The notes under the pieces were generated by a model that had not been told where the DNA came from, did no database searches, and was given only the letters and a program-made list of their open reading frames with translations. A stretch of DNA of 64,000 bases from a virus: positions 62,001 to 126,000 of IMG/VR virus record IMGVR_UViG_3300036772_000367. One strand, written 5' to 3'. Of this stretch, positions 1,953-31,969 are shown piece after piece; the first letter of the stretch is position 1, and each line of letters begins with the position of its first letter. The translations under genes were made by a program, and so were the position numbers.

Positions 1953-1982
1953 TCATGCCTGCAAATATTATCGAGGGGTAGT

Positions 1983-13722: not shown

Positions 13723-13747
13723 TCACTAGGAAAGCTGTCATTTCACG

Positions 13748-13795: not shown

Positions 13796-13799
13796 TGTC

Positions 13800-14425: not shown

Positions 14426-14437
14426 GAAGGGAACCGA

Positions 14438-16849
14438 ATGGCGACATTTGTTGCCAAAACAGACTGGGTGCATCCGAAGTCTGGCGGTACTTCCTTTTCC
14501 GTGACCCTGTCGCACACCGCTACCGCTGGCAACAAACTGGTGTTTTTCAGCGGTGGCGGTGCTATCTCCACTCCCACGGGTTTTACTGAACTCACCACCT
14601 ATGGGGGCGGTACGGAGGACGTTTCCATCTGGGACAAGACCGCTGCGGGCGGTGAGACGTCAGTTTCGGTGTCTCTCAATGGCTCCGGAGACAATGTCGG
14701 TGGAACCATCCTGGAGTTCGGGCCTGGCTTGACCTTCTCAGCGTGGTCCAACAATGGCACTGGCAACGTCGCCCAGCAATCCAACGACTACCAGATCTTG
14801 CCTTCGTCGGCGGTGTCGTTGTCCTCCGGCAACGGCGTGTTGGTCTCTATCCACACGGCCGCCACCTCGGTGGCCTGGTCGTTGGCCAACTCCATGCGCT
14901 CCTACGGACCACTGGGTTCGCTGATCAGCGTGGGTGGCAACGTGGATGCCAGTGGCACCGAGTTCTTCAACTACGGCATCGGCATCGCTGATGTCACGTC
15001 CACCGGTTCCTACCCGGCCACCGCAGCGGCGGGCCACTACACGGCGACGACGAACTACACGCCTGGCTCAGGGCGATGCTATGCGGCCCAGGTGCTCTAC
15101 ACCGACACGTCGGGTGTCGCCACCGTGGCTCCGTCGACCAAGACAGCGCAGGAGAACTCCCTGCCGGGGACCGTCTACCAGAACTGGTTTCTGGGTGACA
15201 ACGGCACCGACTCCACGACAGCCGCGTACACGGACTTTTGTTCGTATAACCCCGGCGACACTGTCAATTTCAAGGTGAATTCTTCTAACAATCCATTCCG
15301 AGTGGAGATCTATCGTCTAGGGTTCTATTCCTATGAGACATTCGGCGCTCGCAATGTGTTGGGTAATCAGGCTGGCTACATCACCGGCACCGCGATGGTC
15401 CAGCCGACACCCACCACTGATTCCACGCTGGGGTCGGTCTCGTGTGGTTGGACGACGAATGCCACCTGGGCGATCCCCTCGACCGCACAATCTGGTGTGT
15501 ACTACTACTTCGTGCGTCGTACGGATGTGACCACGCATGTTGCCTCAGGGCACTTCGTGGTCAAGGCAGCCTCGGTGACCAACAAGATGGTGGTGGTCAT
15601 CCCCGATCAGACCCATCAGGCGTACAACCGCTGGGGTGCCATCACGGACACTGGCACCACCATGACCGGCCGCAGTCTATATGCCTCCGGTGCCGACGGC
15701 GGCACGTGGGTGTTCACCGACCGGGCCTACGCGGTGAGCTTCGATCGGCCCTATGGTCTGCAAGCCGACCGCGACGTGACGTATCTGTTCGACTCCACCA
15801 TGTCCTTCATCTCTTTCGCCGAGGCGCAGGGCTACGAGATGTGCTATGTCAGCGACATGGATCTGCACGCCAGCCCCACGATCTGTCAGGGTGCGGCGAT
15901 GGTGGTGCTGGCTGGTCACCAGGAATATTGGACGACGAATACGTACAACGCGATGTACAACATCGTGAACAATTATGGCATCAATGTCGTGAACCTCTCT
16001 GCGAACACGGCATTGTGGCATACGCGGTTCGCGTCGGCCGACACAAACTACCGCACCATGATCTGTTACAAGGAATCCGGCACCCTGGATGTTGGGCCCA
16101 ATGGTGCGCTGCCGGGCACCGGATATGATCCGGTATCCTACACGGGAACATGGCGTGACACTCGGCAGCTCTCGGGCACCGTCAACAATGTTGACATCCG
16201 GCGCGAAAATTTCTTGGGTCAGATCTTTGTGATATCGGGTCACTTCTCCGGTCAGGCGGTCATCGACGCGGCCCACAAGACAAGCCCGATCTGGCGCAAC
16301 TCGGCCGGAGTCCAGGCGCTGACCACGGGGCAGACTTACACGTGCCCCATCACCTCGATCGGTGATGAGACTGACTATCCGGATGGCTCCTCCGGGCAAC
16401 CGGCCAACATGGTGATGTTGTTCTCCCAACCAGGCGTGACGTCGAGCTTGGGTGCGAACGCGGCAGGCACTTTGTACAGCAGCAGCGTGACAGTCACGCT
16501 GGGATGGACACTGGCACAGACCTCGGGCGGATCACTGATCTTCTCCACCGGCAACTGGCGTGGTCACAACCCGATCTCCCGCTGGCGTACCGCTTCCACT
16601 GCCCCCTCCACCGGAGGCATAGATCTGAACTGGCAGAACGCCCTGCTCTGCATCTTGTACGACATGGGACAGACGCCCGTCACGCTCACTGCGATGCAAC
16701 CGGGCACAGACACGGCTGTCACCGATCCCGCGATGGGTGGCATGGGGCAAGGCAAGACCACTGTAGGCAAAGCTTATGGATTGCTGGAGCCCACCCCCAA
16801 AGTGGCCTTTATGTACAGCCAGGCCGTCAATCGTTCGGCAACATACTGA
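14438..16849 (+). CDS. Tail fibre with dimethylformamidase-like C-terminal domain
   Basis: The first 240 of 803 residues form a Gly/Ser-rich beta region typical of phage adhesins. From about residue 250 the sequence matches the large-subunit C-terminal family of N,N-dimethylformamidase. The landmarks appear in order: YRLGFYS (about 292), a linker, QAYNRWG (396), SFDRPY (434), DMDLH (about 475), GHQEYW (493) and SANTALWHTRF. In bacteria this family is hydrolytic or sugar-associated; in a phage fibre it may bind or modify host surface polymers, which is inference. Start has a GAAGGGA site. Confidence 0.75.
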   Translation: MATFVAKTDWVHPKSGGTSFSVTLSHTATAGNKLVFFSGGGAISTPTGFTELTTYGGGTEDVSIWDKTAAGGETSVSVSLNGSGDNVGGTILEFGPGLTFSAWSNNGTGNVAQQSNDYQILPSSAVSLSSGNGVLVSIHTAATSVAWSLANSMRSYGPLGSLISVGGNVDASGTEFFNYGIGIADVTSTGSYPATAAAGHYTATTNYTPGSGRCYAAQVLYTDTSGVATVAPSTKTAQENSLPGTVYQNWFLGDNGTDSTTAAYTDFCSYNPGDTVNFKVNSSNNPFRVEIYRLGFYSYETFGARNVLGNQAGYITGTAMVQPTPTTDSTLGSVSCGWTTNATWAIPSTAQSGVYYYFVRRTDVTTHVASGHFVVKAASVTNKMVVVIPDQTHQAYNRWGAITDTGTTMTGRSLYASGADGGTWVFTDRAYAVSFDRPYGLQADRDVTYLFDSTMSFISFAEAQGYEMCYVSDMDLHASPTICQGAAMVVLAGHQEYWTTNTYNAMYNIVNNYGINVVNLSANTALWHTRFASADTNYRTMICYKESGTLDVGPNGALPGTGYDPVSYTGTWRDTRQLSGTVNNVDIRRENFLGQIFVISGHFSGQAVIDAAHKTSPIWRNSAGVQALTTGQTYTCPITSIGDETDYPDGSSGQPANMVMLFSQPGVTSSLGANAAGTLYSSSVTVTLGWTLAQTSGGSLIFSTGNWRGHNPISRWRTASTAPSTGGIDLNWQNALLCILYDMGQTPVTLTAMQPGTDTAVTDPAMGGMGQGKTTVGKAYGLLEPTPKVAFMYSQAVNRSATY

Positions 16850-16860
16850 AAGGCAGTGAC

Positions 16861-17328
16861 ATGGGTGCGTATGTTGTCCACAATCAAGGGGCTATTCCAG
16901 CGCTGACTGCCTCCACGACCAAGACGTTGGTTTATATCAACCCTGCTGTGGTGGATATCGTTATTAACGAGATTAGTATTTCCTTTGACTCACCTTCGGC
17001 GGCTACGGCGATCGAAGTGGATCTGTATCGAACAACCAACGCGACGAGTGCGGCCGGTCCTTCCTTCACTCCGGTAAAGACGACCAAGCCTGGTAGTGGT
17101 GGTACTGCTGCACAGTCCACTGCCTTGATCAACCTCACAGTGGAACCCACTGCCATAGAAGTGGTGCGCACCTACTTCATTTCTCCCGCTTCGGGTTTGA
17201 TGGTATTGCAGTTCCCCTTGGGCAAGGAGCCTGCTGCGCTAGGGGGCGGTCAACCCATTGGCCTACGGGTGGTCACTCCAGCAGGAGTGACACCCCATGC
17301 GTTGGCGTATCTCGACTTTTCTGAGTAG
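16861..17328 (+). CDS. Small beta-rich structural protein
   Basis: The 155-residue product is Thr/Ala/Val-rich with predicted strands throughout and no Cys. The ATG with AAGG upstream is chosen over longer frames that overlap the fibre gene. It resembles head or fibre decoration proteins in composition only; no family is recognised. Confidence 0.65.
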   Translation: MGAYVVHNQGAIPALTASTTKTLVYINPAVVDIVINEISISFDSPSAATAIEVDLYRTTNATSAAGPSFTPVKTTKPGSGGTAAQSTALINLTVEPTAIEVVRTYFISPASGLMVLQFPLGKEPAALGGGQPIGLRVVTPAGVTPHALAYLDFSE

Positions 17329-17354
17329 TGATCTTCTGACATAGGTGATCTGAC

Positions 17355-18911
17355 ATGGCACGGTTGGCGAGGTCGTTCCCCGGCTTCATCGTGCTACGGG
17401 GCCCGATCGCGACGACGCCGTCTTGGACCACGTGGCAGGGTGCCGCCGCGTTTGCCCCTGCCCTGACCTTGACAACAGCCGGCACCTTGATCTTGGCGTC
17501 ATCGGCCGCCACCCTGTCGGTCACGGCTGGGTTGTCCGCTGATGGCGGGGCAATCAGTCAGGCTGTTGTCACCTTGACGCCGACGGCCAGTTTGTCCAGC
17601 GCGGCCATCGACGTTGTTCCCGGAGCGGTCTCTCTGTCCGGCACAGCGGGGTTGAATGCCGCCGGCAGCTATATTGCCCAGGGCAGCGTCACGATGTCGG
17701 CCACGGCGAGCCTGGGTACCGTTGCGGTCCAGACTGGCTTCGGTCAGGCATCGTTGGCACCGGTTGCGTCCCTCGTGGTGGGTACACAGACGGTGTGGCA
17801 GGCCAGCGCCACGTTGGCTCCCGTTTCTGTTCTGGTCGCCGGAGCGGCCCAGACGAGCTTCCCTACGGTAGATCTGACTCCCTCGGCCGGGATGACGGTG
17901 GCGGCGACACGGATCGTGTTGCCGGGAGTCGCGCTGGCACCCCTGGCTGCTCTGACCACCGCGACACCGATGGCGATCTATCAGGGCGCTGTGTCCTTCA
18001 GCCCTGCCATGTCGTTGACCCTGGCATCCGGATCGAACTTCACCGGCAATGTCATTATGTCCGGGACCGGCGCGCTCACTATCGTTGGTCCGAAGGCGAT
18101 CTATCAGGCTATTATCGCGCTGGTTCCGATGGCGACCTTCACGGTGGCCAGTCTGATCCTGCCCTCTGGCGTGCTCCTGGCTCCCGTCATATCTCTGACG
18201 GCGGCGGCCGACATCCAGCTCAACGTCGGCCAGGTCCAGCCCTACTACATCAGGCAACGCCAGGACTGGGCTATCCAACAGGAACGTCAGCGTCACGCTG
18301 AGGCCATCTACTGGATCGGCGAGATGGTGTGCCTTATTTTGATGTGGCACGAGATTGATTTTCAGAAAGGTCTCGTGCAGCGCTGCCATACTTGTTACAA
18401 CACCACGGACACTATCACCAATCGCATCACTGCGGTATACAACCAACCGACGCGTAATGAATGCCCTGATTGTTTCGGTACAACCTTCGAAGGTGGCTAC
18501 CGAGCCCGCATTGTGCGACCTGCGATCCTGACCGATGTGGACGAGACCGAACGCCAGGACCGCAAGGGTTCCATGCATCCGAGTTCTCTGAACGTAGAGA
18601 CCGTCTGGGACTTCCGGTCTCGGGCGGGAGACTATCTACTGCGCGCGGACGGATCACGCTGGCGGCTCTCCGATCCCCAGCGCACCACGTTGCGCACCGG
18701 CTTCTACCATCCGGCGCAGTCCACTAGCTCCATCACGTACGGCAATATCCGCGCGCAGTACGAGGAAGAGACCACGGTGGCCTACCTCTTGCCACCCACC
18801 GATGTTTCCACTCTGAGCACATTGTTGCAGCAACAGGTGTTCTTCCCGCCGAACTTTTCCAGCTTCGAGATCATCCGGGCACCTCTCATTCCGACTGCCC
18901 TGCAAGACTAG
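17355..18911 (+). CDS. Neck protein with N-terminal beta-repeat extension
   Basis: Residues about 25-295 of 518 are built from roughly 12 repeats of 20-23 residues (pattern: small residue, x, V/A, x, L/F, x, P/A, x, A, x, L, then a variable TxxxYQ-like end). From about 300 a different domain begins: a Trp/Arg-rich helix, WIGEMVCLILMWHE, a zinc-ribbon-like pair CHTCYN and CPDCFG, then DVDETERQDRKG and a strand-rich end. The second part resembles head-closure or neck proteins by position and content. The repeats may add a collar or whisker. The fusion is seen; its role is inferred. Confidence 0.65.
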   Translation: MARLARSFPGFIVLRGPIATTPSWTTWQGAAAFAPALTLTTAGTLILASSAATLSVTAGLSADGGAISQAVVTLTPTASLSSAAIDVVPGAVSLSGTAGLNAAGSYIAQGSVTMSATASLGTVAVQTGFGQASLAPVASLVVGTQTVWQASATLAPVSVLVAGAAQTSFPTVDLTPSAGMTVAATRIVLPGVALAPLAALTTATPMAIYQGAVSFSPAMSLTLASGSNFTGNVIMSGTGALTIVGPKAIYQAIIALVPMATFTVASLILPSGVLLAPVISLTAAADIQLNVGQVQPYYIRQRQDWAIQQERQRHAEAIYWIGEMVCLILMWHEIDFQKGLVQRCHTCYNTTDTITNRITAVYNQPTRNECPDCFGTTFEGGYRARIVRPAILTDVDETERQDRKGSMHPSSLNVETVWDFRSRAGDYLLRADGSRWRLSDPQRTTLRTGFYHPAQSTSSITYGNIRAQYEEETTVAYLLPPTDVSTLSTLLQQQVFFPPNFSSFEIIRAPLIPTALQD

Positions 18912-18919
18912 GAGGGGCG

Positions 18920-19648
18920 ATGCCGCAACTTCTCGCCCCGCAGATGCGTTTCGCCGCCGGGGCTCCGGACCGGCTGGTGATGTTGGCCGACGTCAGCCGG
19001 GAGGAGTCCTACTACCTGGCGACCGAAGCGGTCTACATCGCCCGGCAGACGATGCCCCGCGTCACGGGTGTCACCGCGTCCCGACTGGCCACCATCGTGG
19101 CCGAGGGTTACTTCGGCATCTACTTCCCGGACGCCACTACCTGGTTCCTGGAGGCGGGCACGCGGGCCTTCACCATGAGGTCGCTAGCCGGCAAGACCAT
19201 CCCGATGTGGGTGTCCGATACAGATGGTCAGCTCCGGCGGGACAACCCGAAGATCCGTATCCACACCACGGAGGATGGCCGTCTCCAGGTTCTGATCTTC
19301 CGTCGTGCCGCGCGCCTGGGTCAGCGCAAGGTCGTTCGACGGAAGGATCCGGTCACCGGTCAGCTGACCCTCCGCACGACGGTGGCGTCCTACCCTGGAG
19401 CGCCAGGTCGGATTAACCGTCGTCAGCCTGCCGCTCCGTGGAATGCGTCTGGGACGCAGGGTGGTCAGATCGCCGGAGGGAATGTCGGTGTTCGCTGGCG
19501 GCATCCTGGCATCCAAGCAATGCAGTTTCTCAACGGTGCGCTGGCGCGGACGGCTTTCGAGGCGGGGTTGCCGATCACCACGGTCTACGCGGTGGATGGC
19601 GCCAGTTGGCAGTCCTTCTTGAGCTTCCGCCTACGAGGAGTGCAGTAA
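18920..19648 (+). CDS. Neck/tail completion protein
   Basis: The 242-residue basic protein (ARLGQRKVVRRKDP) lies between the neck protein and a tail-terminator-like gene. This is the usual slot of an HK97-gp10-like or tail-completion protein. GGAGGGG precedes the ATG. It has strand-rich character with an ISRxGP-type helix absent, so the exact family is uncertain. Confidence 0.55.
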   Translation: MPQLLAPQMRFAAGAPDRLVMLADVSREESYYLATEAVYIARQTMPRVTGVTASRLATIVAEGYFGIYFPDATTWFLEAGTRAFTMRSLAGKTIPMWVSDTDGQLRRDNPKIRIHTTEDGRLQVLIFRRAARLGQRKVVRRKDPVTGQLTLRTTVASYPGAPGRINRRQPAAPWNASGTQGGQIAGGNVGVRWRHPGIQAMQFLNGALARTAFEAGLPITTVYAVDGASWQSFLSFRLRGVQ

Positions 19649-19650
19649 TC

Positions 19651-20265
19651 ATGTACCTAACACCTCTGAAGACCGCTGTGGTGGAAGCACTCCGTGACAC
19701 CTTTAATGGCAGTTATCCGAACTCCGACTTTCAGAACATCAACATCAGTGTGGAATATCCCGTACTGAAGTCGCAGTATCCCAATCTCTGGGTGACGTAC
19801 GAAGATACCGCTGAGTTGAGCATTGCCAGTATTGGACACCTGGAAGTCAGCTTCAATACCCAGACTAGAACTTATACTCAGGTGAACCGGTGGCGCTTCC
19901 AGGGGAGCATCACCATTACTATTGCGGCTTTGTCCTCTCTGGAACGCGATCGGCTCTATGACGAAGTCGTGCGTACCTTCGCCTTCGGTGGACAGAATGA
20001 TTCTTTGAATGTCTTTCGACAGAAGATCGAACAGAACGACTTTGTCGGTATGAACTTCAATTTCGACGATCTTCAGCCCACCGGAGACACCGCCGCGATG
20101 GGAACACCGTGGCAGACCGATGAAATGATTTACGAGAAGTCACTCACTATCGACTTGATCGGTGAGTTTGTGGGAGACCCACGTACCCAACAGTTGGTGG
20201 CTCTGTCGAAGTTCGACATCATCGGGACGCCTGAGGCACCAGATGGTATGCAGTTGGCCGGTTAA
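19651..20265 (+). CDS. Tail terminator/completion protein
   Basis: The 204-residue product begins MYLTPLKTAVVEALRDTF, followed by IEYPVLKSQYPNLWVTYED-like strands and helix LERDRLYDEVVRTFAF. This pattern of an N-terminal helix, mixed strands and a second helix, just before the sheath, is typical of tail terminators of myoviruses. It starts two bases after the previous stop. Assignment is by position and predicted fold. Confidence 0.6.
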   Translation: MYLTPLKTAVVEALRDTFNGSYPNSDFQNINISVEYPVLKSQYPNLWVTYEDTAELSIASIGHLEVSFNTQTRTYTQVNRWRFQGSITITIAALSSLERDRLYDEVVRTFAFGGQNDSLNVFRQKIEQNDFVGMNFNFDDLQPTGDTAAMGTPWQTDEMIYEKSLTIDLIGEFVGDPRTQQLVALSKFDIIGTPEAPDGMQLAG

Positions 20266-20304
20266 TCCTGTCCCTGCTGTGCTTGACCCGGATCAAGAAC
20301 TGAG

Positions 20305-20324
20305 GAAGGGAGACGAGTCCCTTC
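20305..20324 (+). promoter_or_regulatory. Hairpin in the sheath leader
   Basis: GAAGGGA pairs with TCCCTTC around a 6-base loop, inside the 96-base gap before the sheath gene. It has no T-run, so an mRNA-stabilising or processing role is as likely as termination. Confidence 0.5.
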
Positions 20325-20361
20325 GGGTGATCGTTGTTGGTGGCCGAAGGAGCTGAGTCAC

Positions 20362-21891
20362 ATCCCGAACTTCACTCAATACGTGCCGCCCAATGTGTAT
20401 ATCAATACTGCCTCGACACCTGTGGTGGCGCCGATCGGTGTCAACCCCACGGTCATTTGTCTCATCGGTGCGGGTGTTGGCTATAACACTTTTCAGGACA
20501 TTGTCACCTTCAGTGGATCAACACCGGTCACCCTGACGAAGAGTGGCATCAATGCTTCATCCATTGTGGTGACGGGATACATTCCCGATCCCAATGCCAG
20601 CAACCAGGCGCTGCCACACACCTTCTTGCCGGACATCACCGGTGGTTCCCCACAGACCAGGGACTATTCGGTCAACCAGACCGGCTCCGGGGCCAGCAGC
20701 GTCACCACGCTGACCAAGGAGGGGTCGGGCACGATCAGCACGACTTATCCGCAAGCAACGGTGTCCTACCAGTACACCGACGCCAGCTACTACGGATTGC
20801 ACTTCTTTTCCGACTACACCAGTTTCACCAACGCCTACGGTCCCGCGTTGGATCCCACCACCGGAGCTCTCGTCAGTCCTCTGTCGCTGGCTGCCCAGGT
20901 CGCCATGCAGAACGGCGCGAACCAGCTCTACGCCATCGCGCTGGAGGGTGGCTCCAACACTCTTCAACAGCAGTTCGCCGATGCCTATGCGCTGTTGTCG
21001 TCTACGAATACCGATGCCAACATCATCGTGCCGCTGTGGAATGAGGTTACCGATCCCACGCAGCTCGCCGGGATGCTCGCCACGCTCAAGGCATTCGTGG
21101 AGGGAGATGCGACCAATCAGGGCATTCTGCGGATGGCATTCGTCGGGTTCGACGAGGCTTACGCACCGGCAATATCGGACCTGGCGACGCTGGCGGTGAA
21201 CGTGGCCTCCGAACGAGTCGTGATGGCGTGGCCGAACCAGTTGAACTTCTTCAACGGAGTGACCTCCCAGACACAGATCTTGGACGGCTTCTATCTGGCC
21301 ACGGCCTATGCGGGGCTGCTGTCCGCGCTACCGCCGCAGATGCCGTTGACCCAGAAGTATCCCCAGGGCTTCTCGGGTGTGCCTATAGCGATCAGCCAGA
21401 CTCTGACTACGACAGCGAAGAACCAGCTCTCCAGCTCCGGCGTCACCGTCTGCAATACCGATCGACGGGGTCGTCTGGTTGTTCGACATGGTCTCACCAC
21501 AGATTATGTCGGCGGAGTGCTCGCTCGCGAGATCAGTCTGGTGCGGGCCGAGGACGCCCTGTTCAACTTGGTCGACCAGAACTTGCTCACCGCTCAACTC
21601 ATTGGTCAGCCGATCATCACCAACACGGTGACCAGCACCAACACCACTCTGTTGCAGGTACGGTCCATTGTGACCGGCGCGCTGGATACGGCGACGACGT
21701 CCGCGCTGATCAATGGCTACAACAACGTCGTGGTGACGGAACAGCAACCACCGTCGGGCGACCCCACTATTATCCAGGTGCAGTTCGCCTACTTGCCGCC
21801 GTGGCCGTTGAACTACGTCCTGGTGTCATTCAGCGTCGACACGACGACCGGTCAGACGAACCTGACGGCCTCGGGAAACACCACGGGCTGA
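20362..21891 (+). CDS. Tail sheath protein (apparent ATC start)
   Basis: The product (509 residues if initiated here) is a contractile tail sheath. It has an N-terminal PNFTQYVPPNVYI segment typical of sheaths, a central variable domain, and a C-terminal half with YAIALEGG, ERVVMAWPNQ, YLATAYAGLLS, LVVRHGLTT and YLPPWPLNYVLVSFSV. The only in-frame AUG-like start is GTG at 20383, which would remove the conserved PNFTQY and has no ribosome-binding site. GAAGGAG lies nine bases before an ATC at 20362, exactly where Met is expected. ATC initiation is therefore the best reading, or the base is a variant of ATG. Confidence 0.85.
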   Translation: MPNFTQYVPPNVYINTASTPVVAPIGVNPTVICLIGAGVGYNTFQDIVTFSGSTPVTLTKSGINASSIVVTGYIPDPNASNQALPHTFLPDITGGSPQTRDYSVNQTGSGASSVTTLTKEGSGTISTTYPQATVSYQYTDASYYGLHFFSDYTSFTNAYGPALDPTTGALVSPLSLAAQVAMQNGANQLYAIALEGGSNTLQQQFADAYALLSSTNTDANIIVPLWNEVTDPTQLAGMLATLKAFVEGDATNQGILRMAFVGFDEAYAPAISDLATLAVNVASERVVMAWPNQLNFFNGVTSQTQILDGFYLATAYAGLLSALPPQMPLTQKYPQGFSGVPIAISQTLTTTAKNQLSSSGVTVCNTDRRGRLVVRHGLTTDYVGGVLAREISLVRAEDALFNLVDQNLLTAQLIGQPIITNTVTSTNTTLLQVRSIVTGALDTATTSALINGYNNVVVTEQQPPSGDPTIIQVQFAYLPPWPLNYVLVSFSVDTTTGQTNLTASGNTTG

Positions 21892-21896
21892 TGATG

Positions 21897-22748
21897 TTAC
21901 TCGACGTGCTTCCACGACTTACGTCGCACGATAGCGCTGACGTTTGCGGCAGACATGCCGTACGCGTGAGCGATGTCGTCGGTCAGATCACCGGAGGCGT
22001 ATCGAGCACGGATAATGCGGATGTCGTTGTCAATGAGACGACTACCACCACCTTGTCGACGAACATGAGGGGCTTCGATCTCGTCCAGGTGCTGCCAGGT
22101 CTGACCTCTGATCGCATAGCCCAAAACAGCGATCTGGACATTATGGTGAGCTGCGATGGAAGCTTGGGTCTCGCCTGCTTTGGATCGAGTCCGAGCATCC
22201 AATACGATGGCATCAGTCAGGACGGCCGAGTCATTGGCTTCGCCACGCTGATTGGTCTTCCCTCTAGCTCGGCCGCGCTTGCTTTTGTCTCGCATGTTGT
22301 CAGCATGGGTTCCGTTCTCCAGATGACTGGGACGACAACAGGGTGGGTTGTCGCACTTGTGTCGGGCATGGTCTGGGATCGCTCCGCCCTGACTCAGCAT
22401 CAAAGCCATACGGTGGGCTCCGATGGTGGACTTACCATCAGGATTCTTCCGGTCATTGAAGATACGGAACAATCCGTACTCCTCGCCTTGAACGGGTCGT
22501 CGTCCGGCGGTCCACTCCCAACACGAGTCGTCGTCGTCAATGATGTTGACCTTCGACCAGAATCGAACTTCCAGTTCTGTCAGCTCTTGAGGACAGCTCT
22601 GGAACAGGAGGGCCTTGCGTTCGGCCACCTTAGCTCGAAGATCTTTGAGTGTGTTCCACACCTCGGTGATCTGACTTTCGAGCGCCCTGATCGGTTCCCA
22701 GCCTTCGTTCCAATCGGCGAGGGTCCGTACTTTGTCGTCGTATTCCAC
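21897..22748 (-). CDS. HNH homing-type endonuclease, antisense insertion
   Basis: The 283-residue product has an N-terminal coiled coil. The HNH core follows (about 100-185): CWEWTAG, YGLFRI, GAHRMALML, HKCDNPPCCRPSHLENGTHADNMRDK. Two helix-turn-helix segments at the C-terminus (GETQASIAAHHNV, LTDDIAHAYGMSAANVSAI) probably recognise DNA. It lies head-on between the sheath and tube genes, ending five bases after the sheath stop. The GTG at 22748 is chosen because a TATACT element lies six bases upstream. The frame continues further upstream only as antisense of the tube gene. Confidence 0.85.
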   Translation of the reverse strand: MEYDDKVRTLADWNEGWEPIRALESQITEVWNTLKDLRAKVAERKALLFQSCPQELTELEVRFWSKVNIIDDDDSCWEWTAGRRPVQGEEYGLFRIFNDRKNPDGKSTIGAHRMALMLSQGGAIPDHARHKCDNPPCCRPSHLENGTHADNMRDKSKRGRARGKTNQRGEANDSAVLTDAIVLDARTRSKAGETQASIAAHHNVQIAVLGYAIRGQTWQHLDEIEAPHVRRQGGGSRLIDNDIRIIRARYASGDLTDDIAHAYGMSAANVSAIVRRKSWKHVE

Positions 22749-22754
22749 GGCGGC

Positions 22755-22760
22755 AGTATA
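22755..22760 (-). promoter_or_regulatory. -10 element of the HNH gene
   Basis: TATACT on the minus strand lies six bases before the GTG start. The -35 region is weak. The arrangement implies a leaderless transcript, matching the other inserted endonuclease gene. Confidence 0.5.
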
Positions 22761-22865
22761 GCAGGTAGTGAAACCTCTTCGTTGGGTGCCTCGGAACCGC
22801 ACCAAAATGATCTTGAAGAGATCATCTTCGATGAGCGTTTTCCCTGCTGGGGTGGTGGTTAACTC

Positions 22866-23360
22866 ATGCCGAACACACAGGTTCGTGTCGTGGGATCTTA
22901 GTCCGGATTTAGCACTTTTAGCTACCAAGGACACCCTATTGCGTTCCTGGAGGGTGTAGAAGATTCCGGTCAGCGGGCCTTCTCCGACGCAGGTCAGGGC
23001 TACCAGTTCATCCACCCGTTGGGTTTCACGCACCCGATCGAGATCGCGACCTCGCGTGTGCTCGCGGGTGGCACGCTGAACCTGACCATCCGGGAATTGT
23101 GGAACACCTTCATCTGGGAGCAGCTGTTCGGTCTGGCGGGGACGCACAACATCGTGGACGTGTTCGCCGCCCTCGCTGCGAACCCCGCTTATGTCACCTG
23201 TCAGACGGTGATTCAGCCACCCGGTGGTGCTGCTCCTCGTGGAAAGAACTTCCACAATTGCGTGGTGGTTGACATTGCCGACAACGACACCATCACCGTG
23301 GGGGCGCTGGCGGTGACCAAGGGAATCGTCGTGGCATATACCCACTCATCGGCGCTCTGA
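22866..23360 (+). CDS. Tail tube protein gene interrupted by an in-frame amber codon
   Basis: Reading from the ATG gives MPNTQVRVVGS, then TAG at 22899, then an uninterrupted continuation in the same frame (SGFSTFSYQGHPIAFLEGV and on to the stop). The position between sheath and chaperones and the length (164 codons) identify the tail tube. No ATG, GTG or TTG lies between the amber codon and a TTG at 23019, which would delete the first 50 residues. The upstream ribosome-binding site is weak (GGGGTGG). Translation must use readthrough, suppression or an unusual start, unless the base is an error. Several other genes here end in TAG, so global amber recoding is unlikely. Confidence 0.75.
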
Positions 23361-23399
23361 TGATCATGCATCAGCGCTGATTACAGAAAGGGTCATTAC

Positions 23400-23951
23400 A
23401 TGACCGCATTCAGTGCTGATGAAGCCCTGGTGGGTCCGACGTCCCGATCGTCGGACCCACCAGGCGTCTGGGATGCCCCAGAGCAGGAGACAACCACTCC
23501 TACGACTCCTGTGCGGGACGACCCGGTCAAGGACGATACCGATGATCTGACGCCGCGCGAGTTCAACCCTCGGGCCAGAGAACCGTTCATCGGATTGCTG
23601 TACCTGGGATCGCTGGACCGAGAGGTGACACTGTACGGCCACAAGTTCCTGTTGGTCACGCCCACTAATGCGGAGCGCATCCAGATGGGGTTGATCACCA
23701 AGGACTGGCGCGACACTGCGACCGAGGAAGTTGCCCTGGGTCAGGCGCTCGTGGCGGCCTTCCTGCACAAGGTCGACGGCCAACCGCTGCCAGAACCGAT
23801 CAGCCCAGATCCGAAGGACACCGCACTACGCGGCCGGTTCAATTGGGTGGGGGAAAACCTGCGGCGGCAGGTGATCACCGCGTTGTTCCAGGAGTGCATG
23901 ATCCTGGACACCCAAGTCGATATCGCGTTGGAGGCTATGGGAAAAGCGTAG
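23400..23951 (+). CDS. Tail assembly chaperone, short form
   Basis: The 183-residue product has a disordered acidic N-terminus, then a compact domain (FIGLLYLGSLDREVTLYGHKFLLVTP onward) as in gpG-like tail chaperones, and lies between tube and tape measure. It ends with GGA AAA GCG TAG, where the first two codons form part of a slippery heptamer. AAAGGG precedes the ATG. Confidence 0.8.
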   Translation: MTAFSADEALVGPTSRSSDPPGVWDAPEQETTTPTTPVRDDPVKDDTDDLTPREFNPRAREPFIGLLYLGSLDREVTLYGHKFLLVTPTNAERIQMGLITKDWRDTATEEVALGQALVAAFLHKVDGQPLPEPISPDPKDTALRGRFNWVGENLRRQVITALFQECMILDTQVDIALEAMGKA

Positions 23952-24355
23952 CGCCAGCCGGAGTGGACCCGTGGCTGAAGACAGAGTTGCGGTTGGCGGA
24001 ACGACAGGGACTGCTCACGGGACGTTACTTGTCGCCGATTCAGGTGCAGGGGATTCAAGTCCTCCGGCTGTTGGACGAGGTGGAGAAGCAGCAAACGAAG
24101 TTCGATCTGTTGCGGACGGCCTTGGTGGCGGCGGGAGCCCCTCCTCAGGACATGTGGCCCGAGTTCAAGGAGCTGTTCGGTGACGCCACGGTGGAGATGG
24201 ACGATCCGGCCGCTGACGATCCGAACGCGACGTATGACTACCGTGACGTGGAGTGGAAGGGCATCAGCGATGCTGCGCAGGAATACGAGGATCTGATGGT
24301 GAAGGTTGCTGCGCTCCACACGGGACGCATCAATGGTGAGTCCCTGACGAAGTAG
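23400..24355 (+). CDS. Tail assembly chaperone, -1 frameshift fusion form
   Basis: A -1 shift at G GGA AAA lets ribosomes continue as SVAPAGVDPWLKTELRL into a frame that stays open to 24355, adding about 135 residues. Known families of this type make a gpG/gpGT pair in fixed ratio to load the tape measure protein. The downstream frame has no own start with a ribosome-binding site that would give a full product. The fusion lies immediately before the tape measure gene, as expected. Confidence 0.85.
23939..23945 (+). promoter_or_regulatory. -1 ribosomal frameshift site GGGAAAA
   Basis: The heptamer fits X XXY YYZ in the zero frame (G GGA AAA) and lies two codons before the short-form stop. Both tRNAs can re-pair after a one-base backward slip. 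Confidence 0.85.
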
Positions 24356-24360
24356 GAATC

Positions 24361-26913
24361 ATGCCTCGGGAAAACGCACGCAAGACCGAAAACGCGTGGA
24401 AGCTTCGGGATGAGGAAGCAGCGCGCAACCAAGCGCAAGCTGCTGGTCAACCGAATCCCGCTGATGTGCGTTTCGGTGGCACTTCACAGATGCGGACCAT
24501 GAAGGTTCAGATCGTGGGTGCCGATAGTGCTTTCGTCGAGGACTTGAAGCGTGCGTTGGGAATCTCGGATAATTCAGGAACCATGGGCATCCATGCGAGT
24601 ATCGGTGGTGGCTTCGGAGAACTGCATACTCAACTTCAGTCCGTCATCACAGATCAACAGGCGATTTCCCAAGCCACCAAGCAGGTAGCGCAAGATCTTT
24701 CGTTGGCCGTGAACATGGTCACGAATTATCAAGCCACTATCGCTCGGCAAATGGGCACTTATATCTCGGATATGAGTAATCTGCGTCAGCAAGAAACCCA
24801 GCACATGCAGAACCTCGTCAGCATGATGACCAACGCGGTAGCTCAGATGCAGGGCGCCCCCGGTGGAGGGGGCGCCGTTCCGACGTCACCAACTCTTCCT
24901 GTCCCTCCTCCATCTCCTGGTGCACCACCACCCACCCCGTTGCCACCACCTCCTCCCAGGGGCGCAGGTGGTGGAGGTGGAGGCCCGACACCCCCTCTGC
25001 CACCTCGTCGTCCACGGACGCCTCCCACCCCATCCGGTGGTGGTACCACGATGAGTCAACTTCGTCAGCAGGCCGCACGGGGATATCGGAGTTGGGCGAG
25101 TGGTCATGGGTCAGCCGGTCAGACTATCGCCTCCACGGCCACGAATATAGGAAGTCGACTGCTACGGGCGAATCCCGTCACAGGAATTCCTCTCGCAACA
25201 GGGCAAATAATAAATGATGCAGCTATCTGGGTCACCAATCAACGTCAGGCCAATGCGCAGTATCAGTCGATCTATGACAATGGAAATTTCTCGGCAGGAG
25301 GAGCACTCTCTCAACTGGGTAGTTTCATTACTGGTGGTGCGACCAACGACACCTCCGGCTTCGGTCAACGAATGGCTGAAGAAGGCTTCGTCTTGTCCCA
25401 ACGGTTCTCTGGCGGGATGACAGAAGGTCAGGCGCGACAAGCTTTTCAGGGTGTTTCTCAACTCGGTTACGCTGGAGGTCAACGAGACAACGCATTGCAG
25501 TTTGTCTCAGACAACTACAAGCAGATGGGCATGGACATCGCCCAGTCTATTCAACTTGTTCAGTCGGCTGCGCAGAATGGTAATCAATCTCTCGCCGGAT
25601 TGGCCCAGCAACTTCAGGCGGTGTCTTCGCAAGCAGCCGCTACCGGTCAGAACGCGGGCGCGTTGCGACAACAGTTTTCGAATTACTACTCCCAGGGTTT
25701 GCAGTCGGGCCTGGGTGCAGGGTCTGGTTCTGTGGCGCAAGTGCTTACGTCGACTACTTCGGGTACCAGTCGTGACTTGACGAACGTCAACTACAGTTCG
25801 CTACTGTCCAACCCGGTCCTCATGCAGACCCTGGCGGCCCAGCGGGGGATGACTTTGGGACAGATGGAATCCCAGGTGGCCCAAGGCAATACCGGAGCCT
25901 TCACTCAAGCTTTGGGACAGCGCACCAATCAAGTATTGACAGGTTCTATGAACCAAACTCTGCGGACTCTGTTCAGTCAACAGGTGCAGCAAGCCGGTGG
26001 CTATCAACGAGTTGCACAGACACCTGGTTCGCAATACAACATTGCCGTCCAGCTCATGCAGAGTCGAGACTGGAATGTCATGGAAGCTCGGGCGGCCATG
26101 GGCACCCTGGGTATCGACACGTCCAAAATGAATGATGAGCAGATTGCCGAATATTACGTGTCGACCCTCTCCAGCGGCGGTGTTCAGGCTGCCGGCAGAG
26201 CACAACAGAGCAAACTCGGAACCCTCACACCACAGGAACGTGCTGCTGCGGGGGGTGGTAGCCCTAATATTGGTGGATCGTCTTATCTCAATAAGATGGC
26301 CCAGGACCGGGCTCAGAATACCCCCAGTGTGTTGGATTGGGCCAGTCAGCTCTTCGGTGGTGACAGCACAGAGAACAATGCTAAGAATGCCAAATCGCTT
26401 GCGCAGGCGTATCAGGGTTACGAGTCGCAGCAGGGCAACAGCAACCCGGCCATCGAATCGATGATCTCGTCACTGGGTACCACCGGTTCCTCTCAACTCC
26501 GTGTGCAGACACCCCAGGGTGACCGGGTGGTGTCCATGCAGGATGCGATCAAGTACTACTCCGACCAGATCTCCACTGGCTCGGCTGTCGTGGTGGGAGG
26601 CGCCCAGAACGGCAAGACTCTGGGAGAGGCCACCGGCACCGTCATCGCGGGCTACCAGTCACCCCGTCCGGGTGGTTCGGCCAAGAACGGCCCCGCCAAC
26701 ATCGGCCAGTCCTGGGCGGACTACCAGAAGGCCAACCCGAGCCAGCAGCAGGGTGCGGCGGCGGCCACCGGCACACAGACCAACGGCACCGTCACGGTAA
26801 GTCCGAGCCCCACGCTGATGCAGATGTTCAACTGGTCTTCCACGGGAGGCGTCAACATCGCGGGCTCCACGGCCCAAGGTGTGACACCCGCGATTCCGGG
26901 AGGCAACTATTGA
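24361..26913 (+). CDS. Tape measure protein
   Basis: The 850-residue product follows the frameshifted chaperones. It is Gln/Ala/Ser-rich and mostly helical, with a Pro/Gly-rich low-complexity linker at about 165-235. A small hydrophobic patch sits near 275-290, and long helical stretches suit an extended rod that sets tail length and leaves with the DNA. No peptidase domain is visible. Its stop overlaps the next TTG start. Confidence 0.85.
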   Translation: MPRENARKTENAWKLRDEEAARNQAQAAGQPNPADVRFGGTSQMRTMKVQIVGADSAFVEDLKRALGISDNSGTMGIHASIGGGFGELHTQLQSVITDQQAISQATKQVAQDLSLAVNMVTNYQATIARQMGTYISDMSNLRQQETQHMQNLVSMMTNAVAQMQGAPGGGGAVPTSPTLPVPPPSPGAPPPTPLPPPPPRGAGGGGGGPTPPLPPRRPRTPPTPSGGGTTMSQLRQQAARGYRSWASGHGSAGQTIASTATNIGSRLLRANPVTGIPLATGQIINDAAIWVTNQRQANAQYQSIYDNGNFSAGGALSQLGSFITGGATNDTSGFGQRMAEEGFVLSQRFSGGMTEGQARQAFQGVSQLGYAGGQRDNALQFVSDNYKQMGMDIAQSIQLVQSAAQNGNQSLAGLAQQLQAVSSQAAATGQNAGALRQQFSNYYSQGLQSGLGAGSGSVAQVLTSTTSGTSRDLTNVNYSSLLSNPVLMQTLAAQRGMTLGQMESQVAQGNTGAFTQALGQRTNQVLTGSMNQTLRTLFSQQVQQAGGYQRVAQTPGSQYNIAVQLMQSRDWNVMEARAAMGTLGIDTSKMNDEQIAEYYVSTLSSGGVQAAGRAQQSKLGTLTPQERAAAGGGSPNIGGSSYLNKMAQDRAQNTPSVLDWASQLFGGDSTENNAKNAKSLAQAYQGYESQQGNSNPAIESMISSLGTTGSSQLRVQTPQGDRVVSMQDAIKYYSDQISTGSAVVVGGAQNGKTLGEATGTVIAGYQSPRPGGSAKNGPANIGQSWADYQKANPSQQQGAAAATGTQTNGTVTVSPSPTLMQMFNWSSTGGVNIAGSTAQGVTPAIPGGNY

Positions 26914-27644
26914 CCGGCATCGCTTCGCTGGGTGGATTGTCTTTTCGGGTCAACCCCAGCCAGATCACCGTCGACTACTCCGTGGACACCTGTGTCATCA
27001 ACACGGTGGGTGGCCGCGTCGTGCAGGTCTATGGCACCACACTGGGCGACATGACCGTGCAGGGCCTGTACGGGGTCGACCGCGCGACACCGCAGGAGTC
27101 TTGGGAGATCGCGGAAACTTTCCAAGGACAAATCGCTCAGTTGATCAACCAGCAGGGTGCGCGGCCCTCCATCGCACAACTCAGTGGAACCGACCCCACA
27201 CCGATGCTGCCGCCTTTGCGTTTTACCTATTCCGATCCTAAGCATACGTGGGATTACAATGTCTATATCAAGTCATTCAAGGACATCAACAATCCTGAAG
27301 CGACTATCGAGCATGTCACAGGGAAATACTCCTATGGCTATTCTCTGATACTGTTCATTGTGCAGGATAATACCGGACAGCTTGCGCAGGTGGCGCAGGA
27401 TCAGTTCATCAGTCGACTATCTGATGGGCTTGGCTGGCAGCGCACTGCGTACAACGGACAGATGACGATTGCCGACCTCCAGAACTACTTGACGAAGAAC
27501 AGCCCGGACGGGACGATCCATGGATTGATCTTGCAGGAGTTCAACCAGGCGTCTCAGGGACAGCTCCCCACGGCCGGGTCGGCCACCAACCCAGTGCCCG
27601 GTGGCGCGGGCACCGTGAACAGCTTGGGCACATCAGGAGGCTGA
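26910..27644 (+). CDS. Baseplate/tail-tip protein
   Basis: The 244-residue product starts at a TTG overlapping the tape measure stop. It has a strand-rich first half (SFRVNPSQITVDYSV, RVVQVYGTTLGDMTVQG) like tail-tip proteins that bind the tube end. Helical segments and a Gly/Pro tail follow. Proteins in this slot of myoviruses join tape measure and hub. No named family is recognised with certainty. Confidence 0.6.
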   Translation: MTGIASLGGLSFRVNPSQITVDYSVDTCVINTVGGRVVQVYGTTLGDMTVQGLYGVDRATPQESWEIAETFQGQIAQLINQQGARPSIAQLSGTDPTPMLPPLRFTYSDPKHTWDYNVYIKSFKDINNPEATIEHVTGKYSYGYSLILFIVQDNTGQLAQVAQDQFISRLSDGLGWQRTAYNGQMTIADLQNYLTKNSPDGTIHGLILQEFNQASQGQLPTAGSATNPVPGGAGTVNSLGTSGG

Positions 27645-27645
27645 G

Positions 27646-27846
27646 ATGGCGACATCCGATCTGTGGGGGACTGACACCCCCATCTCTATGCCCGAACCCA
27701 TCGTCCCCAGTCAGCCGGTTCTGGTGGACATGGGAGGGTTCGGCTTCACCCAGACCGGCATCGCACACAACATCACGCGTGCAGGTCTGGAGGTTTACAC
27801 CACCCCCTCGTTCTTGCCGTCTCCATCGCTGGAATCTGACCGGTGA
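27646..27846 (+). CDS. Small baseplate-region protein
   Basis: A 66-residue frame with an excellent AGGAGG site begins two bases after the upstream stop and overlaps the next GTG start by four bases. The product is Pro-rich with one central Gly/Phe-rich stretch (VDMGGFGFTQTGIAHN). Function is unknown. Confidence 0.7.
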   Translation: MATSDLWGTDTPISMPEPIVPSQPVLVDMGGFGFTQTGIAHNITRAGLEVYTTPSFLPSPSLESDR

Positions 27847-28460
27847 GTGGCACCACGGGAACGAGTGGGCCGAATAGCAATGCAGCCTTCGCGTTCACAG
27901 CGGGCGGCTCTGGATATTACTTCCAGAGCCGCTGTCGAGGCATCACCCATGGTTATGAGGTCGTGGCATCGGAATCGCACGCTCGCACCACTCGTGCGTT
28001 CTATCCGCGCCAGCGAGCGCTGGCCCAGTTCACACTCACACTGGAACTGAAGGGGTACGCAGACTACAAGGCTTTCATGGACTTCATGCGCAGCTACCTC
28101 CAGAACTTCGCCGCCAACACCGCCACGGGAGCCATGAGCGTGGGGGTACCGCAGCGCAATTTCCTGCGCTACGGCGTGCCAGTCGGTGGCATCTCCGATG
28201 GAGATCACATCGGGTCGATGGTCTTTGCACCCACGATCGTCTTCGAGTCCATCTATGATCCGCTGGATACAGCTATTTTCACTACCACGACCGACACTTC
28301 TCAGGTGGACCTGGGGACTTCCCAGAGTGACAATGCCGCGACGTTTTTCTATCCGGTTACCGCACCCACCAACGACCCCAACGCCACGGGAGAGTCTCTC
28401 TACGACGCACCACCTCCGGTGACCCAACCCGGTGGGCCCAGTAGTAAGCGGGCGGTGTGA
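27843..28460 (+). CDS. Baseplate structural protein
   Basis: The 205-residue product is strand-rich (GYYFQSRCRGITHGYEVVASESHART, AQFTLTLELKG) with one helix (YKAFMDFMRSYLQNF) and a Pro-rich tail. It resembles tube-like or hub-adaptor proteins, and its position before the hub supports a baseplate role. GTG start overlaps the preceding stop. Confidence 0.6.
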   Translation: MSGTTGTSGPNSNAAFAFTAGGSGYYFQSRCRGITHGYEVVASESHARTTRAFYPRQRALAQFTLTLELKGYADYKAFMDFMRSYLQNFAANTATGAMSVGVPQRNFLRYGVPVGGISDGDHIGSMVFAPTIVFESIYDPLDTAIFTTTTDTSQVDLGTSQSDNAATFFYPVTAPTNDPNATGESLYDAPPPVTQPGGPSSKRAV

Positions 28461-28466
28461 ACTGGA

Positions 28467-31136
28467 ATGCCCACATTTGTTTATGCCCCGAGCGTCACGG
28501 CCCATGTGGAGGTCACCAATAAACAGGGTCAGGCTGAGATCGTTGACATCTCTAATGATCTGACCGCAGGGCAAATGAATCTTCGCACCAATGGTGTGCA
28601 TTTGTTTCAATTCAAGCTCCAGAATTCTCAGCGCAAATATGACGGTCTGATCCGGCCGATGGATCGCATCGTCATATCGATGTCCCGGATCGGTGCCCCA
28701 CTTCGAGTGTTTTCTGGGTACATGAACAACGGGCCGATCTTTTCGGTGTGGCCGCGCGTGCTCAATATGACTGCCTCGTGCACCATCAAGAAGCTTCAGT
28801 TCTGGTACTGGGACTCCTCATCGAACGCCGCTCAGACTCTTATCACGAGCTGGCAACAGCTCCAGGCCAATCAGTCCACCCAGACGAAGGCCAACCAGGG
28901 CAACCAACCGAACGCGGCGGACGGCGGCATCCGCGACATGGTCATCCAGCTGCTGACCGAGGTCGTGGGCTGGCCCCAGGAGAAGATCCACATCGGGGCT
29001 ATCCCCACTCGATGGTTCGACTTCGCTACGTCGGTGGGCGACGAGATCATCAAGGCGGCCGACGAATCGGCCCTCATCGGCACGCTGGGCGGCTCGGCCT
29101 CGGTGGGTGGCTCAACTCTCACCGCGAACGGTTCGCTGCCGCCAGGGACGTACGCAGGCGTTGCGTTGAACCAGGATCAGGCCAACAACGCGGCGACCAT
29201 CTTCAACGTCGCTGTCTCCCGTGGTCTGACGTCCCATGACGCCGCGCTGGGCATCGGTTGTGCCATGCAGGAGTCCTCGCTGGTGAACCTCCACAGCGGT
29301 TCGGCTGACTCGGTGGGTCTGTTCCAACAACGGCCGTCTCAGGGCTGGGGCACCGTTGCGCAGATCGAGGACCCGCAGTACTCGGCCGGGAAATTCTTCG
29401 ACGCCTTGATCAAGGTCCCTAATTACGAGACACTGCCGTTCACAGTAGTGATCCAGGATGTCCAGCGTTCAGGGAATCCGAATGCTTATGCGCAGTGGGA
29501 GAATCTTGCCAACGCGTGCGTACAGGTCTTGCAGAAGAACAACACGAGCAGTACCAACGCAGGCATTCTGACACAGGGTTCGACGACCATCGGCTCCGGC
29601 GGTGCGACGGGAGAGAACATCGCTTCAGTGTCCTACAATCTTATCAAAAGCCATCCTCCCGGTTACATTCGTTATCGAGAAGGTGGCGACTCCGCCTACA
29701 ACGATCCGGATCCTCGGATTCTGGATTGCTCTAGTTTTGTAGATTGGGTCTTTTATCACACCACGGGTCGACCGTTGAATCCTTCCGGGCAACGCTCGGT
29801 GGCCGCATCTATCGGGCCGCAGTGCATCAACATCGACCAGGCCGCTGCCAAGAACATCAAGGGCGCCCTGCTGTTCCTCGGCGGTGTCGGTGCCGAGACG
29901 CATGTGGAAGTGTCCTTGGGCAATGGCTACACAGCCGCCGCGCACACCGACCAGGTCCCGCTCGCTCAACAGGTAGATGTTGGTCAGGCGGGGAACTTCA
30001 CCCACGGTGGTCTGCTGCCAGGTATCAACTACTCGAACTCGGCGACCACGGCAGTCGCCGCAAATCTCATCCAGGCCGTGGAGCACTATAAGGCCAGTAC
30101 GTCCGACCCCAACCAGTTCGGACCTAACGCTCCAGCCAGTTCCGTCAACCCCACCAACCAGACCGGAGCCAACACGGGAGACCCCTTCAACGCACTGATC
30201 AATGTCTACACGTGGGGCTTCAACCCCAGCAACGACGCGGATATTTTCGCTGGCCCACGCGCGATGATGAACGACGAGCCGATCCTGCCCTATATCTCGA
30301 ACCTATTGGGCGCGTCGATGCGTTCCTGGTGCTCGGCCCCCAACGGAGACTTCATGGCCTGGTTCCCGGACTATTTCAACATCTGGGGCATCAGTGCGGT
30401 CATGAATGTGCGGGCGATCGAGCTGATGGACTTCACGGTCGACTGGTCGGATCAGCAGATCGTTACTCATCAGTATGTTGTCGGTGTCCCCCAAGGAATG
30501 TTCGACACGGCATCAGGCTCTGTGTCGGCCTACGACCCAACCGGCGGCCAGGGACAACTCTACTGGGAGCTGACCACCCAGGGCGTTGCTACGATGGACT
30601 TCCCGCAGATCTTCCGAGCTATCTTCGGTCAGGATGCCACGACCGACTTCGTGAACAATTACTTGTCGCGCTTCGGTGGCCGTCCGAACATGGTCACCAT
30701 CCCGACCATCTCTCAGGGACGACCAGAGTTTTTCATGGCGCTGTATCTGTTCATGCAGCGGTGGGCCAATCAGTTCCAGGCTAATGTGCCCATGACCTTC
30801 ATGCCCGAGTTGTGGCCCGGCATGATTCTTCGCTTGCCGGAATTTAACTTCCAGGCGTATATCAGCGAGGTGCAACACAACTTTCAGTTCGGGCCAGACG
30901 GTGGTTTTTCCACCACGGCATCCATCAGTGCCCCAGCTCGTATCAACGATCAAGCCAGCATGTTCGGTCTGCTGCCACTGGGTGGTCAGGTCTACGCTCA
31001 GCCCATCACACCCAACGCACCCCAGACGCCGCCCTCCAATACCACCGGAGCACCACCGTTGCCGTTGCCGACCGCGACGGCCCCTCCGACGAGCTTGCCT
31101 GGCCTATTGAACACCCTGACGGGAGGTAACCCGTGA
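28467..31136 (+). CDS. Baseplate hub with lytic transglycosylase-like and NlpC/P60 domains
   Basis: The N-terminal 200 of 889 residues are a hub-like beta domain (FQFKLQNSQRKYDGLIRPMDRIVIS). A lysozyme/transglycosylase-like domain follows at about 225-330, with a likely catalytic Glu269 in AMQESSL and GLFQQRPSQGWGT. An NlpC/P60 peptidase is next (about 375-510), with Cys421 in LDCSSF and His479 in ETHVEV. The C-terminal 300 residues return to hub-like sequence ending in a Pro-rich tail. It would drill the peptidoglycan during DNA entry. The enzyme domains are inserted inside the hub fold rather than attached at one end. Confidence 0.8.
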   Translation: MPTFVYAPSVTAHVEVTNKQGQAEIVDISNDLTAGQMNLRTNGVHLFQFKLQNSQRKYDGLIRPMDRIVISMSRIGAPLRVFSGYMNNGPIFSVWPRVLNMTASCTIKKLQFWYWDSSSNAAQTLITSWQQLQANQSTQTKANQGNQPNAADGGIRDMVIQLLTEVVGWPQEKIHIGAIPTRWFDFATSVGDEIIKAADESALIGTLGGSASVGGSTLTANGSLPPGTYAGVALNQDQANNAATIFNVAVSRGLTSHDAALGIGCAMQESSLVNLHSGSADSVGLFQQRPSQGWGTVAQIEDPQYSAGKFFDALIKVPNYETLPFTVVIQDVQRSGNPNAYAQWENLANACVQVLQKNNTSSTNAGILTQGSTTIGSGGATGENIASVSYNLIKSHPPGYIRYREGGDSAYNDPDPRILDCSSFVDWVFYHTTGRPLNPSGQRSVAASIGPQCINIDQAAAKNIKGALLFLGGVGAETHVEVSLGNGYTAAAHTDQVPLAQQVDVGQAGNFTHGGLLPGINYSNSATTAVAANLIQAVEHYKASTSDPNQFGPNAPASSVNPTNQTGANTGDPFNALINVYTWGFNPSNDADIFAGPRAMMNDEPILPYISNLLGASMRSWCSAPNGDFMAWFPDYFNIWGISAVMNVRAIELMDFTVDWSDQQIVTHQYVVGVPQGMFDTASGSVSAYDPTGGQGQLYWELTTQGVATMDFPQIFRAIFGQDATTDFVNNYLSRFGGRPNMVTIPTISQGRPEFFMALYLFMQRWANQFQANVPMTFMPELWPGMILRLPEFNFQAYISEVQHNFQFGPDGGFSTTASISAPARINDQASMFGLLPLGGQVYAQPITPNAPQTPPSNTTGAPPLPLPTATAPPTSLPGLLNTLTGGNP

Positions 31137-31921
31137 TGAATACCAACGGGTTGTCTCAGCCAACCTATCCAGGGAGCGCTAGCCGGGGCTTCGCGTGGAA
31201 GCAGGTGTTGGTGCAGGGGGTCGACGGCAATGTAGCTGTCGTGCAGGACTCGGTCACCAAGAAGACTTTCAACGTCTCCATCACTAACATGCCTGCCAAG
31301 GGCGTCCCACCCGCACCAGGCGAAATGTGGTTGGTGAGTCGTCAGTATGCGGTGTGGGCCTTCGTATTGTGTCTCAATGCTCCCACGGCGTTGCAAATAT
31401 CCAATATCCAGAATCTGACGTCGGATTTGGCTACGCTCACTACGGCTACTCAACGTCCTCAGCTATTGTCTACTTTGTACAGTACGGCTAGCGTGCAGTA
31501 TATGGAGCAGGGCGCAGCCATTGCTTCAATCACCAATCAGACGTCGTACAGCACCATGCTGACTACTGGCTCGCCGGGCGCCCCCAACGGCTTAGTGTTC
31601 ATCGCACCACCTAGCGGTATTGTGCGATTGAGTTGGGGCGGGAATTTTCGCGTCGACACAGCCGCCATTGTGGTATATATCGGGTTGCTCGTCGCAAGTG
31701 GCGCCGTAATTGGATCAGGAACCCCTCTCTTGGGTATCGCGGACTTCGAGGCTATTCAAACGACTGCGACCAACATTGTTGTCCCTGGTGCACGCACGCG
31801 TTACATTAACGGACTGGTCTCAGGTGGCTTCTACAATGCCTATATTCAATGGCGTACGAGTGGCAACGGGACAGGTGAGGCGAATGGAGTGTGGGCCGAC
31901 GCGGTGCCCTCACCGCAATGA
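31136..31921 (+). CDS. Baseplate spike/OB-fold protein
   Basis: The 261-residue product begins with an OB-like barrel (ASRGFAWKQVLVQGVDGNVAVVQDSVTKKTFNVSI, EMWLVSRQYAVW), as in central spike proteins of contractile tails. A Ser/Thr-rich stretch and a C-terminal beta domain follow. ATG 31136 lies nine bases after GGGAGG; a GTG three bases earlier is an alternative. It overlaps the hub stop by one base. Confidence 0.6.
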   Translation: MNTNGLSQPTYPGSASRGFAWKQVLVQGVDGNVAVVQDSVTKKTFNVSITNMPAKGVPPAPGEMWLVSRQYAVWAFVLCLNAPTALQISNIQNLTSDLATLTTATQRPQLLSTLYSTASVQYMEQGAAIASITNQTSYSTMLTTGSPGAPNGLVFIAPPSGIVRLSWGGNFRVDTAAIVVYIGLLVASGAVIGSGTPLLGIADFEAIQTTATNIVVPGARTRYINGLVSGGFYNAYIQWRTSGNGTGEANGVWADAVPSPQ

Positions 31922-31969
31922 TCCTGTCCTGAGCATTCCAGTTAATGCTAAGGGCTGAAGGAGGTGGAC

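Follow-up and report, generated by a model that had tools for sequence, protein, structure and literature searches.

An endonuclease-linked six-nucleotide insert in a phage tail tube gene, probably removed by ribosomal stop-hop

Tail Tube Gene and Its Neighborhood

The window analyzed here is the whole 64,000-nt stretch corresponding to positions 62001-126000 of a virus record of 155,226 bp. Its tail gene region contains the following features:

20383-21891, plus strand: tail sheath gene, upstream neighbor of the tube gene (PHROG 2839/279 tail sheath, E 1e-51)
21897-22748, minus strand: HNH homing-endonuclease-like gene between sheath and tube (Pfam HNH_3 above cut-off; presumed GTG start)
22866-23360, plus strand: tail tube gene with the insert (81-91% identical to its counterparts in the closest intact relatives; PHROG 2756)
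22896-22898, plus strand: proposed take-off codon UCU (Ser11), placed by alignment with 51 intact relatives
22899-22901, plus strand: amber codon TAG, codon 12, read directly from the sequence
22899-22904, plus strand: 6-nt insert TAGTCC, i.e., the amber codon and the proposed landing codon, missing from every intact relative
22902-22904, plus strand: proposed landing codon UCC, sharing tRNA-Ser(GGA) with the take-off codon
23400-23951, plus strand: tail assembly chaperone gene, downstream (PHROG 2792/2992)

The tube gene product belongs to PHROG 2756, a family of virion structural proteins. Homologues are present in 210 cultured phages of Mycobacterium, Gordonia and Rhodococcus, and the one from Rhodococcus phage E3 is annotated as 'tail tube protein'. 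In gene order the tube gene comes directly after the sheath gene and before the tail assembly chaperones, and its position is confirmed by the chaperone gene downstream, so that the original assignment as a tail tube gene is upheld. The entire record carries a single copy of the gene, and a second, intact copy was rejected on this ground. No solved structure for the family was retrieved by a sequence-based search and no host or prophage copies were found in GTDB genomes. Judging from the cultured relatives, the host is presumably an actinobacterium.

The tube gene reads MPNTQVRVVGS-TAG-SGFSTFSYQG...SSAL-TGA in one frame that stays open until the TGA at 23358-23360. The in-frame amber codon of the original prediction is therefore real. 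It was also correct that no usual start replaces the N-terminus, since no in-frame ATG, GTG or TTG occurs from the TAG up to the TTG at 23019 (codon 52).

A Six-Nucleotide Insert Rather Than a Mutated Codon

In intact relatives, [V/T]GS is followed directly and without a gap by [G/S][F/Y], while the window alone has VVGS-[*S]-GFSTF. None of the 51 intact metagenomic relatives, the 15 closest ones included, has the hexanucleotide TAGTCC, which is located in the context TCT/TAGTCC/GGA (take-off codon/insert/resumption codon). It is also missing from the 210 relatives among cultured phages, all of which match the tube protein in one piece. Since this codon position does not exist in the relatives, no sense codon there could have mutated to TAG; six bases were inserted, and the idea of a sense codon turned amber has to be abandoned.

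Across the ~76 kb of this genome that were aligned, no further internal stops were detected in well-conserved genes. This indicates that the contig is not error-ridden, and a genome-wide tolerance of internal stops was likewise rejected. A group I intron or another known RNA was dismissed as well, as there was no Rfam match within 14000-34000. Folding of the RNA around the insert was no better than that of shuffled sequences (z +0.39).

Inserts in Related Phages

Broken tube genes were also found in 6 of the 56 tube loci compared. Our analysis revealed ten further inserts in relatives, 2-15 nt long, in genes for the tube, the baseplate wedge and another tail gene, most of which adjoin an endonuclease gene or remnant (notation as above):

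L174, tube: TCT/TTAGGAGCCTAGTCT/GGT, at the same site as the window insert
L180, tube: TGG/TTAATTGT/GAG
L181, tube: TGG/TTAATGC/GAG
L182, tube: TGG/TTACCTGG/GAG (8 nt)
L186, tube: CAG/TTACTTAG/TTC
L185, tube, two inserts: TGT/TTAC/GAG and TTT/TT/ATC
L212, baseplate wedge: CAA/TTAGCAA/TAC
L215, PHROG 2786 gene: CTC/TT/ACC
L217, PHROG 2786 gene: CTA/TTACAAAGCTC/ACC

The inserts of L180, L181, L182, L186, L212, L215 and L217 break the frame (+1 or +2). In L185 the frame effects of the two inserts (4 and 2 nt) cancel, and a TGA lies between them. Some inserts share a site and are thus not fully independent, although their sequences at one site differ. The three non-tube inserts were obtained by comparing 1.52 Mb from the insert-bearing phages and five insert-free relatives; in the portions of these five that were sampled, no such insert was detected in any conserved gene. 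No RNA structure was consistently conserved across the inserts.

Linkage to Homing Endonuclease Genes

In most relatives the sheath and tube genes are adjacent, and in the closest groups free of the endonuclease gene only 9-43 nt separate the end of the sheath gene from the tube gene. A homologous HNH gene in the same place and orientation occurs in L139 (= L008), L152, L153, L156, L174, L180, L181. The gene thus combines an HNH motif with presence or absence at one site among relatives, as expected of a free-standing HNH homing endonuclease. In L182, what lies upstream of the tube gene is an endonuclease remnant that has lost the HNH core, and the 8-nt insert is kept; L186 has an endonuclease of a different type, AP2-HNH, beside the tube gene.

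Among 58 loci, approximately 10 carry an endonuclease gene or remnant at the tube gene and 48 do not. Tube inserts were found in 6 of the 10 loci with a neighboring endonuclease gene or remnant versus 1 of the 48 without (Fisher p 3e-5), and the association persisted after collapsing near-duplicates (p 6e-5). The linked endonucleases are of two types, HNH and AP2-HNH. The exception is L185, where the same gap holds no endonuclease but an N6/N4 DNA methyltransferase gene (~1737-2490, plus strand). The tube gene is intact in four endonuclease-bearing loci, and therefore the insert is not obligatory. Recoding of the tube 5' end in endonuclease loci was considered and set aside, the signal over the first 10 codons being weak (p 0.017) and a wider measure giving no significance. 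In L171, antisense ORFs, including one for a ParA-like protein (VITVGVLKGGTGKSRLAM), occupy a 1986-nt gap between sheath and an intact tube gene.

Concerning the non-tube inserts, an AP2-HNH gene with an in-frame stop (L212:14048-14551, minus strand) lies directly upstream of the baseplate wedge gene, and what appears by eye to be the C-terminus of an HNH protein precedes the PHROG 2786 gene in both L215 and L217. L217 additionally contains a short ORF (~13650-13870, minus strand) in which the PHROG 2786 N-terminus occurs a second time (MLGTATLGYPGGPAVPFRLDPEN) and is fused to an HNH-like tail (LCRSCHKKFD), as would be seen after invasion of the PHROG 2786 gene by an endonuclease.

A-Site Codon, Landing Codon and tRNAs

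Slow A-site codons are important for hopping (PMC5009743). The codon right after the take-off codon is UUA in all ten inserts of the relatives and UAG in the window. In the codon usage of these phages UUA ranks last or within the bottom four (0.34-1.1 per 1000), and intact tube genes contain 3 UUA in 8,563 codons, all in one locus. The full tRNA arrays of G008, G009, G011 and G012 include tRNA-Leu with anticodons CAG, GAG and CAA and lack tRNA-Leu(UAA). The window phage, which uses UAG after the take-off codon, encodes tRNA-Leu(UAA). No tRNA gene was found in the 166-kb record of the L181 phage (G010), compared with ~35-40 in four insert-bearing relatives.

When the take-off codon and the insert are read together, the last triplet equals the take-off codon or differs from it by a single base in 10 of the 11 inserts. 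The chance of such agreement is ~8e-8 if the inserts are independent and 9e-5 if counted per site, both values being optimistic owing to shared ancestry. Only two of the three bases match in L180, L181, L186 and L217, and the first L185 insert (L185a) fails the rule; in these five cases a +1 or +2 frameshift, with no hop, might suffice. In the window, the take-off and landing codons UCU and UCC are both read by the phage's own tRNA-Ser(gga), encoded outside the window at record position 23641-23729. An expanded anticodon loop in this tRNA was rejected, as the loop looks normal.

A suppressor tRNA encoded elsewhere was among the explanations first proposed. One borne by the phage itself is not supported, as none of the 40 tRNAs of the window phage has a CUA anticodon. 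TAG ends 19 of its 106 long ORFs, in line with the original statement that amber is still a stop. With no such tRNA and no avoidance of TAG as a stop, the phage does not resemble phages recoded through suppressor tRNAs. A tRNA with a CUA anticodon (ARAGORN 'Pyl') was observed in the related phage G011 (L218:16323-16396), at the place where G009 has tRNA-Arg(UCU); it is possibly a phage amber suppressor, and the tube insert of this relative uses UUA.

Proposed Stop-Hop and Alternative Explanations

Based on sequence comparison, we consider it probable that the tube gene carries an endonuclease-linked insert that is removed by a ribosomal stop-hop. The 6-nt insert, associated with the adjacent HNH gene, would break the endonuclease target in the tube gene and so shield the endonuclease-carrying phage, as proposed by analogy with T4 gene 60 and mobA. 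During translation, peptidyl-tRNA-Ser(GGA) would leave UCU while UAG occupies the A site and re-pair with UCC six nucleotides on, and translation would resume at GGA. The predicted product would be the exact protein of the family (MPNTQVRVVGSGFSTF...): VVGS-GFSTF equals the sequence of the 51 insert-free homologues, whereas a readthrough product would be two residues longer, as in no relative. The inserts of the relatives would follow the same design, with the slow codon UUA replacing UAG in the A site. Bypassing itself, its efficiency for a protein required in large numbers and the protection from cleavage are what we infer from these comparisons, protection being perhaps the simplest explanation of the linkage between inserts and endonucleases.

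The original prediction rightly regarded recoding here as worthy of attention and named regulated readthrough, a suppressor tRNA elsewhere and a conditional mutant as candidates. Each of these retains some probability, but all rank below a stop-hop, because the hop restores the exact protein of the family and because the frame-breaking inserts of the same design in relatives cannot be rescued by readthrough. Specifically, a near-cognate tRNA could read through UAG, adding X-Ser after Ser11. The insert does preserve the frame, which is open to the gene end, and among the many tRNAs encoded by the phage are those for Gln(CUG), Lys, Tyr and Trp. However, no relative has an extra residue at this place, the seven loci with +1 or +2 inserts would not be helped, and TAG routinely terminates genes of this phage; we thus regard readthrough as unlikely. 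Suppression by a tRNA of the host or of a co-infecting phage finds a precedent in the CUA-anticodon tRNA of G011, but the absence of such a tRNA from the window phage, its many genes ending in TAG and, once more, the frame-breaking inserts render it very unlikely.

The strong linkage to endonuclease genes could also mean that the inserts arose as scars of repair where the endonucleases cut, in genomes that are defective or complemented by a co-infecting phage; fill-in and joining of staggered ends can also create near-direct repeats around inserts. Under this explanation, one would not expect all 11 inserts, across two endonuclease types, to place UUA or UAG in frame behind the take-off codon (4/64 each by chance). 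Moreover, the assembled contigs, which measure 79-166 kb and come from seven different records, all have the inserts in essential single genes, and we judge repair scars to be quite improbable. An assembly or sequencing error is conceivable for a single contig, the more so as an exact 20-mer search found no match to the same population or a near-identical contig elsewhere. Such an error is nevertheless highly improbable, given that other contigs hold ten inserts built in the same way and that the aligned conserved genes of this genome have no other internal stop.

Comparison With Known Bypassing Systems

Efficient bypassing in bacteria is known mainly from one gene, T4 gene 60. Its 50-nt insert is thought to protect against a neighboring homing endonuclease (PMC5009743), a role that may also apply to the window insert. 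Both cases concern an essential phage gene with a stop directly after the take-off codon, a matched landing codon and an adjacent homing endonuclease gene. They differ in that the window insert has 6 instead of 50 nt and leaves the frame unchanged, while its endonuclease belongs to the HNH_3 family and is encoded on the opposite strand, in addition to the different gene and hosts. Furthermore, the take-off site is only 11 codons from the start of the tube gene, leaving little room for a nascent-peptide signal of the T4 type, and the folding analysis gave no take-off stem-loop. The window insert probably works like T4 gene 60 bypassing, without being a member of the class as defined by the T4 signals.

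In a stop-hop, matched codons flank a stop and nine nucleotides give one amino acid, an arrangement known from synthetic constructs (PMC5009743). UCU UAG UCC has precisely this arrangement, with one tRNA for both codons, but in a natural gene. With respect to natural in-frame stop hopping, a 2016 review stated that 'no occurences are known' (PMC5009743).

The UUA codon in the terminase gene of Streptomyces phage phiHau3 has been named a candidate bypass site (PMC5009743). There, and in prophage StrepC.1, UUA comes directly after the last in-frame codon, as in the ten inserts of the relatives. The phiHau3 record reads GGC/TTAC/TCC, with the same TTAC as L185a. The differences are that the gene is a terminase, that the window uses UAG, and that phiHau3 has no directly adjacent endonuclease, the nearest upstream HNH gene being gp1 at 591-905 and the terminase starting at 2329. 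The phiHau3 site (L270:2329-3995; KGWG/TTAC/SGKD) falls at the Walker A motif.

Mitochondrial byps of Magnusiomyces are 27-55 nt long. Like the inserts described here, they are many short non-coding sequences removed at translation, some with imperfectly matched landing codons and with an unused codon in the A site (PMC5009743); unlike them, they are bypassed by mitochondrial ribosomes, in a yeast.

Implications for Phage Biology

The ten similar inserts suggest that a phenomenon famous from one T4 gene may recur as a strategy. A broader reading, which we hold with about even confidence, is that large actinobacterial phages harbor a recurrent class of mobile bypass elements of miniature size (2-15 nt) within essential virion genes. 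Each would have a homing endonuclease as its partner, the A-site trigger would be UUA or UAG, whichever the phage in question decodes slowly, and the window would contain the first natural in-frame stop-hop. If the inserts are indeed bypassed, endonuclease-linked bypass elements would constitute a recurring class in phages. They would be short enough for codon-by-codon dissection, with two alternative triggers (UUA and UAG) and natural insert-free controls, and would supply a natural in-frame stop-hop. They would also warn that some apparent readthrough is in fact hopping, and would account for broken virion genes in metagenomic phage genomes.
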